A stretch of DNA of 42,583 nt, from the IMG/VR virus record IMGVR_UViG_3300032896_000074, positions 1-42,583 of that record. One strand, written 5' to 3'. This document shows positions 26,547 to 27,434 of the stretch, in pieces (the first letter of the stretch is position 1; the number at the start of each line of letters is the position of its first letter). Origin of the DNA: a virus. The notes below the pieces were generated by a model. That model ran no database searches. It had not been told where the DNA came from and saw nothing but the letters and a program-made list of their open reading frames with translations. Made by a program: the position numbers and the translations under genes.

Positions 26547-26825
26547 TCAGGCGCTGGACAGCCACTGGTCGAGTTTCTTCGACGCCCGTCCACCGTGCAA
26601 GGCGGCAGCTATCAATTCCTCAAGCCGCGGATCGGCCTTCGCATAAAGGAGTGCGACGCATCCGATGGCGACGCTGGCAGGGATATCGACCGGACGGTCA
26701 TCTTCACGCCGACGGCCGCGCTCGTAGTTCTCGATCGAGCCGCGCGACAGTCCGAGTATTCCGGCTGCCTCGCCTTGCGAAAGCCCCATAGCCCGGCGCC
26801 AGGCTTTGAACTGTTCTGGGGTCAT
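26547..26825 (-). CDS. XRE-family transcriptional regulator
   Basis: 92 residues. TPEQFKAWRRAMGLSQGEAA and LGLSRGSIENYERGRR are a clean XRE HTH with the recognition helix at about 30-40. The C-terminal part may dimerise. ATG preceded by GGAGAAT. It faces away from the late genes and stands beside several palindromes, so it probably controls the early-to-late region. Confidence 0.8.
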   Translation of the reverse strand: MTPEQFKAWRRAMGLSQGEAAGILGLSRGSIENYERGRRREDDRPVDIPASVAIGCVALLYAKADPRLEELIAAALHGGRASKKLDQWLSSA

Positions 26826-27027: not shown

Positions 27028-27064
27028 CGTACTGTGTACGCAAGGAAAAAGCGTACTGAGTACG
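27028..27064. promoter_or_regulatory. Two 13-bp palindromes, CGTAC-N3-GTACG
   Basis: CGTACTGTGTACG (27028-27040) and CGTACTGAGTACG (27052-27064), 24 bp apart, arms perfect in both. Spacing of about two helical turns suggests cooperative binding of a dimeric regulator upstream of the late region. Confidence 0.6.
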
Positions 27065-27077
27065 AAATATTCGCAGG

Positions 27078-27106
27078 CCGTCACGCTCCACCCGTGGCGG
27101 TTTTTT
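27078..27106 (+). terminator. Rho-independent terminator before the structured RNA
   Basis: CCGTCACG, 7-nt loop, CGTGGCGG (one T-G pair), then six T. It lies between the tandem palindromes and the candidate RNA, so either late transcription starts after it or is driven through it by antitermination. Confidence 0.75.
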
Positions 27107-27110
27107 CGTT

Positions 27111-27236
27111 TCAGGACGGCAGACGGACGAGGCTAAGGCCGGTGAGTAGGTGGCCCCGCGTGGAAGGCGAAAGCCTCTAGACCACGACGGCTGCCGAACA
27201 GCCCGGATGGGAAGCGAGCGGTCTAGTCCGTCCTGA
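27111..27236 (+). ncRNA. Candidate structured RNA at the start of the late region
   Basis: A gene-free 126-nt block closed by a perfect 9-bp helix (27111-27119 with 27228-27236). Inside are a 7-bp helix CTAGACC/GGTCTAG (27177-27183 with 27220-27226), a hairpin AGGC-GAAA-GCCT (27165-27176) stacked directly on it, and a hairpin GGCTG/CAGCC (27189-27203). A second donor, GACGGAC (27122-27128), can pair with 27226-27232 in place of the closing helix, so two folds compete. Its strand is taken from the GNRA loop and the late-gene direction. I do not recognise the class. A put-like antitermination RNA, a late-operon leader or a packaging RNA are all possible. Confidence 0.5.
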
Positions 27237-27434
27237 TCAGTCTTCGTAGTTAAGGATCATCTGTCCAATTTGGTCGACGTCGTCGCGGACGAGTAGGGTC
27301 ATTGCTCGATCCCCAGCCGAAGCGTTCATCGTGATGGTGGTGAATTCGTTGGCATTCCATCGCTTATAATAGGCGACATTGTGGAAATTAACGTAGACCC
27401 GATCGCCGTTGGTGTCGGTAAGTGAGAGCCACAT
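27237..27434 (-). CDS. Small protein, 65 residues
   Basis: ATG preceded by AAGGAAAG. VYVNFHNVAYYKRW then a beta-rich second half (TTITMNASAGDRAMTLLV). Its stop begins at the base after the structured RNA. Runs against the late genes. Not recognised. Confidence 0.5.
   Translation of the reverse strand: MWLSLTDTNGDRVYVNFHNVAYYKRWNANEFTTITMNASAGDRAMTLLVRDDVDQIGQMILNYED

Follow-up and report, generated by a model that had tools for sequence, protein, structure and literature searches.

A candidate family of small structured RNAs that recurs unannotated in unrelated phages

The element and its surroundings in the window

The element occupies positions 27111 to 27236 (126 bases) on the plus strand of a 42,583-base virus record, which is called the window throughout. 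It directly follows a terminator-like hairpin with a T run (27075-27110, plus strand; hairpin 27075-27103), which belongs to the flank and lies outside the family. Downstream, HNH, small-terminase-like, TerL and portal genes are found on the plus strand, and the original prediction of an element placed between an intrinsic-terminator-like hairpin and the late genes is confirmed on both sides. Upstream hairpins of the terminator type were detected in five of 64 family members compared with 1.8% of random positions. The window phage lacks tRNA genes, and no promoter-like site was recognised directly upstream of the element. Two palindromic, operator-like 11-mers (GTACTGTGTAC and GTACTGAGTAC) are located at 27029-27063 between an HTH gene (26547-26825, minus strand) and the terminator, and a 65-aa open reading frame (27237-27434, minus strand), which is devoid of Pfam or PHROG matches, lies on the opposite strand and terminates at the border of the element. 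The block folds modestly better than shuffled sequences (z = -2.4; 5 of 200 shuffles as good), and folding alone is therefore no proof of the element.

Homologues and their distribution

The starting homologue was an unannotated stretch of the Microcystis phage Mwe-JY13 (blastn, 70% over 109 bases), which provided a pair of conserved blocks. About 60 distinct members were then retrieved from viral and genome contigs with exact gapped patterns. Further blastn searches led to Streptomyces and Arthrobacter phages, and the widest of them returned 97 records (E <= 10). About 64 of the carriers are viral contigs, prophages or host contigs; Mwe-JY13, the Arthrobacter phage Racecar and Streptomyces phages come in addition, and the carriers range from phages of Streptomyces, Arthrobacter and Microcystis to (pro)phages of Hyphomicrobiales. 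Up to 93 Streptomyces phage records harbor blastn homologues; a covariance model confirms 13 distinct sequences among them (Braelyn, Comrade, Mandalore, Ankus, Wofford, Tomas, Faust, BillNye, Yaboi, Persimmon, NootNoot, Bmoc and Wakanda) together with Racecar, and the remaining records are based on blastn only. Both of our covariance models, which include the window sequence, recover the element at 27111-27236 and 27111-27237 (R1, 92.3 bits; R2, 92.2 bits), in agreement with the predicted extent. The 126-base stretch is almost certainly one member of a small structured RNA family, of which many unrelated phages carry further, unannotated copies. The published annotation is empty over the element in nearly all phage records, and an HNH call overlaps part of it in Persimmon and WhereRU.

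A comparison with the 4,227 families of Rfam 15 revealed no match for the element in the window, in Mwe-JY13 or at 12 further loci, even with E-value thresholds as loose as 1 to 10, and no description of the family was found in the literature searched (open-licence papers). The initial impression that the sequence belongs to no known class was accordingly well founded, and these searches strongly support a new RNA family, without known homologue in Rfam or in that literature.

The element is present as one copy in 48 of 50 records; one exception (G002) has a copy on each strand, and the other (G049) has only a weak second match. Host genomes rarely carry it: it was detected in 3 of 297 genomes of Hyphomicrobiales and, among 398 of Pseudomonadota, in one, the seed genome itself. 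These counts are lower bounds because only a few first-look candidates per genome were scored. The element is no standard host gene. A plasmid search returned no convincing homologue, and the matches in L078, L079, L087 and L020 as well as the second match in L115 were treated as chance (E >= 0.018). A single 35-kb contig carries two copies (L070 and L021) in opposite orientation, which are separated by about 8 kb and have near-identical closing helices. In another contig (L026), a permuted tmRNA gene (1408-1616) is separated from the element by about 1.1 kb; the same element is found in the genome of Aureimonas flava (L034), indicating that L026 is probably a prophage. Two further members (L062 and L063) have the stretch CGGTGAAACTCCG directly downstream of the element in common.

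Conserved structure of the family

The consensus of 77 sequences comprises a variable closing helix P1, a GGA bulge, a helix of two pairs (P1.1, C-R with Y-G), a mini-hairpin with a UNNG loop (P2), the 4-bp helix P3 and the joining strand RUGGGAWGCGMG, and direct inspection of the window sequence revealed every one of these features, all on the plus strand. P1, P1.1 and P3 covary in a MAFFT alignment of 56 members (score 0.425 versus 0.150 for shuffled partners, a value reached by none of 500 shuffles), and 86% of the cells are paired versus 70% after shuffling; these covariation counts refer to sequences, not to independent events. The corresponding score for 77 members with a revised P3 is 0.490 versus 0.143 (0 of 500 shuffles), but the 56-member test is the cleaner one, because its alignment was fitted to no structure whereas that of the 77 members was fitted to the model. 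The signal vanishes when the partner strands are slid against each other. G-U pairs (42) and A-C mismatches (39) are nearly balanced, and these counts alone do not fix the strand of the RNA.

The 5' strand of P1 (27111-27124) consists of the outer closing helix (27111-27119), C27120, which pairs with G27226, and the inner AGAC (27121-27124). Its 3' strand and that of P1.1 extend from 27219 to 27236, with A27225 and U27227 bulged in the window fold, and this arrangement is supported by covariation. Two-sided changes occur at nine of the ten modelled P1 pairs, the columns of 27122-27124 are paired in 76 of 76 sequences, and the inner pairs alternate between G-C, A-U and C-G without exception. 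The GGA bulge (27125-27127) is near-invariant, each column being kept in 75 to 76 of 77 sequences. The subsequent P1.1 (5' strand 27128-27129; C27128-G27220 and G27129-C27219) has a purine-pyrimidine pair that is A-U in 45 and G-C in 29 sequences with two exceptions. P2 is the mini-hairpin C-UAAG-G (27133-27138); its C-G pair is invariant (77 of 77), hence there is no covariation at this helix, and its site holds longer insertions, which are hairpins by inspection, in L059, L075 and L089. P3 is formed by CCGG at 27139-27142 and CCGG at 27203-27206 and exhibits covariation at all four pairs, with the variants CCCG/CGGG, CCGG/CCGG, CAAG/CUUG, CGGA/UCCG, CUCG/CGAG and CCUG/CAGG. It encloses an optional peripheral arm (27146-27200), which in the window folds into 27149-27155/27189-27195, 27159-27163/27182-27186 and a GAAA-capped hairpin. 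This arm is variable among the members and is substituted by a short loop in L127, L129, L131, L140 and L144, which reduces the core to about 56 nt. The form in the Streptomyces phage Braelyn measures 74 nt and that in Comrade 120 nt. The joining strand AUGGGAAGCGAG (27207-27218) is near-invariant, with U, GGG, A and GC unchanged in 77 of 77 sequences, and this conservation makes it the likely functional centre.

Two alternative pairings were discarded in the course of the modelling. An MFE helix GCU/AGC (alignment columns 22-24/141-143) is broken without compensation by an altered U24 in L092 and by GGGAUGC in 11 sequences of actinophages, and a 3-bp GGC/GCC version of P2 was abandoned, as the C common to both helices covaries with P3 (the pair is A-U in L137 and L143).

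The helices of the original prediction fared differently. The perfect 9-bp closing helix (27111-27119/27228-27236) is present and shows the expected covariation as part of P1, and the GAAA-capped hairpin (AGGC-GAAA-GCCU, 27165-27176) is also found in the window. The proposed 7-bp inner helix (27177-27183/27220-27226), for which compensatory changes had likewise been expected, is complementary in the window but does not covary among 56 homologues (0.120 versus 0.126 for shuffled partners; 312 of 500 shuffles as high), and its 3' strand belongs to P1, since GUCU (27221-27224) pairs with AGAC (27121-27124), exceptionlessly at three of the four pairs. The hairpin with a 5-nt loop, taken as GGCUG-CCGAA-CAGCC (27189-27203), can be formed in the window, but it uses a nucleotide of P3 and is no feature of the family. 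The strand that was thought to displace the closing helix (27122-27128 versus 27226-27232) shows no covariation either (194 of 500 shuffles as high), and GGA at 27125-27127 within it is the near-invariant bulge. With covariation lacking in both the inner and the displacing helix, the data offer no support for a competition between two closing helices.

Genomic context

The element is usually located beside tRNA genes or just ahead of the DNA-packaging genes. Thirteen of the 64 non-Streptomyces members have a tRNA or tmRNA gene within 400 nt (4.0 expected), in all 13 cases on the same strand. The distance to a tRNA end is only a few nucleotides in L024, L058, L089, L094, L096 and L115, and in L058 the element lies between tRNA-Asn and tmRNA. 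It is found among tRNA and tmRNA genes in the Streptomyces phages; some elements reside within tRNA arrays or at their ends, and others downstream of terL (L002, G026, G030). One host genome (L128, 1426-1599) contains an element without its 5' side that starts 6 nt after a tRNA-Gly gene and represents a prophage boundary or a relic.

Two Pfam models located TerL in 23 of the 47 viral records and the annotation located it in Mwe-JY13; the positions in these 24 records were tallied by hand from the result tables. The gene is found within 4 kb downstream of the element on the same strand in 13 of the 24 records (1.1 expected), and both are co-directional in 21 (p = 0.0003). If both sides are counted, 16 of 24 records have a co-directional terminase at a distance of up to about 4 kb. 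Placement ahead of the packaging genes is common in mid-size phages. PHROG tallies of the neighbours, for which the longest open reading frames were taken as a crude choice in GC-rich DNA, revealed no common gene or family apart from some HNH endonucleases. This absence of a conserved neighbour speaks against a gene-specific leader, and cis-regulation of one gene class was rejected on the same tallies.

A strict scan identified promoter-like sites of the TTGACA type with a predicted start at P1 in L132, L138, L139, L140, L144 and L096, and TTGACA is accompanied by a weaker or oddly spaced -10 box in L129, L130 and L131. Such a TTGACA site marks the start of the element in most of the Streptomyces phages that were inspected, and its position is exact in several. 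In some of them the element opens the predicted transcript, and no terminator was found in the 150 nt that follow. A region of Mwe-JY13 (L002, 2488-3280) comprises about 800 nt after terL without an annotated gene, many hairpins with GAAA- or GCAA-type loops and a tRNA-like 3' arm; it has no Rfam match and could be a larger RNA that holds the element.

Proposed function and alternative explanations

The direct basis of our interpretation is homology, a structure supported by covariation, single copy, context and orientation, and from these we infer transcription, processing, stability, action in trans and the partner of the RNA. The element would be the gene for a small structured non-coding RNA that is present in one copy per phage in many tailed phages. 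The closed P1 would lead into a junction of P1.1, the UNNG mini-hairpin and P3, linked by RUGGGAWGCGMG, with the P3 arm being optional. The RNA may be made together with, or at the head of, the tRNA/tmRNA cluster or the late and packaging transcripts, it would probably be trimmed by tRNA-processing enzymes, and as a stable molecule it would most likely act in trans. Its invariant strand may bind a host machine that is conserved across bacterial phyla, i.e. the ribosome, tRNA-processing enzymes or RNA polymerase. The single copy, the lack of a common neighbour, the tRNA-like placement near tRNA ends and the conservation of an unpaired strand across phyla favour a stable trans-acting RNA, and we consider the chances that the element works in this way to be about even. 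The lack of tRNA genes in the window phage counts against this reading. Small stable RNAs of obscure function at the end of the phage tRNA cluster are also represented by rnaC and rnaD (species 1 and 2) of T4, but rnaC ends in a tRNA-like arm that the new family lacks, and the tRNA region of T4 (NC_000866, 69,000-74,000) contains no match to the covariance model. GOLLD and ROOL are structured RNAs associated with phages and tRNAs, a setting that they share with the element. In contrast to the element they are hundreds of nucleotides long, and it has no Rfam match to any such family. Two more specific proposals were rejected. Complementarity to the rRNA of E. coli is no better than that of shuffled segments, which places base-pairing to this rRNA at chance level, and a Y RNA partnered with Ro60 was dismissed, because the vWA neighbour in the Streptomyces phages is TerF-like and not Ro60.

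The main rival to a trans-acting RNA is a cis-acting, protein-independent antiterminator like put of phage HK022, whose nascent RNA would stay on RNA polymerase and suppress downstream termination. Two features keep this explanation alive, namely the position ahead of the packaging genes (upstream of TerL in 13 of 24 records; 21 of 24 co-directional) and the elements predicted to open a transcript, both of which would also suit a cis-acting leader. The element begins at a promoter-like TTGACA site in L096 and several Streptomyces phages, where tRNAs or other genes follow without a terminator found in the first 150 nt. The put RNA measures about 70 nt, which is about the size of the minimal core, and suppresses termination through the zinc-binding domain of the RNA polymerase beta' subunit (PMC9378689). 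Both are phage RNAs that can sit just after a promoter, put acts without a phage protein, and RNA polymerase would be a conserved partner. However, put consists of two stem-loops in series (PMC9378689) whereas the element forms one closed junction, and the covariance model has no match in the whole HK022 genome (NC_002166, both strands). Moreover, put is found in lambdoid phages, while the element has another sequence and occurs in phages of several host phyla. It is also encountered within tRNA arrays, at their ends and after terL. The copy in the window is located after a terminator, on which it cannot act in cis, and on balance we regard a put-like function as rather unlikely.

If the element were a novel self-cleaving ribozyme, or a processing element by which the tRNAs of a phage transcript are separated, this would explain the small compact core, the invariant joining nucleotides, the optional peripheral arm and the members located a few nucleotides from tRNA ends. 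The theta ribozymes of gut phages, which have an HDV-like fold and a cleavage site at the tRNA 3' end and were proposed to separate tRNAs in phage transcripts (PMC10879173), are likewise small structured RNAs adjoining phage tRNAs. This explanation is nonetheless improbable, given that the element matches no Rfam ribozyme, can precede or follow a tRNA and often has none in its vicinity, as in the tRNA-free window phage, and that the terminal sequences of P1 vary freely on both sides.

The enrichment near the terminase (16 of 24 records) would also be compatible with a trans-acting packaging RNA, a phage-encoded structured RNA as in phi29, but the stretches that were read from Streptomyces phages hold the element in the tRNA cluster and not beside the terminase, and neither the phi29 genome (NC_011048) with the covariance model nor the scanned elements with Rfam gave a match. 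To our knowledge, known packaging RNAs serve only phi29-like motors, and this role is very unlikely here. Still less probable is a DNA element, such as a cos, pac or attachment site, that merely resembles an RNA structure. The position upstream of the terminase and the truncated copy that begins 6 nt after tRNA-Gly could be read in this way; the strand agreement with the tRNAs (13 of 13), the promoter-like sites fitting the 5' end, the asymmetric junction with UNNG- and GNRA-type loops and the two-base helix with its purine-pyrimidine covariation argue against it. The RNA switch with two competing closing helices can practically be discarded, because neither alternative helix covaries and no conserved downstream gene exists, even if the window sequence permits both pairings.

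The conservation of the element across actinobacterial, cyanobacterial and alphaproteobacterial phages points to a universal host target. We tentatively envisage, at somewhat less than an even chance, that the RNA alone engages such a machine, either as a protein-free RNA-polymerase antiterminator in at least three bacterial phyla or as a new small ribozyme or processing RNA of tRNA operons. Few structured RNA families with such a conserved core remain unrecognised in well-sequenced isolates, and as teaching laboratories grow Streptomyces phages that harbor the element, without annotation, in their tRNA/tmRNA clusters, its function is directly testable.
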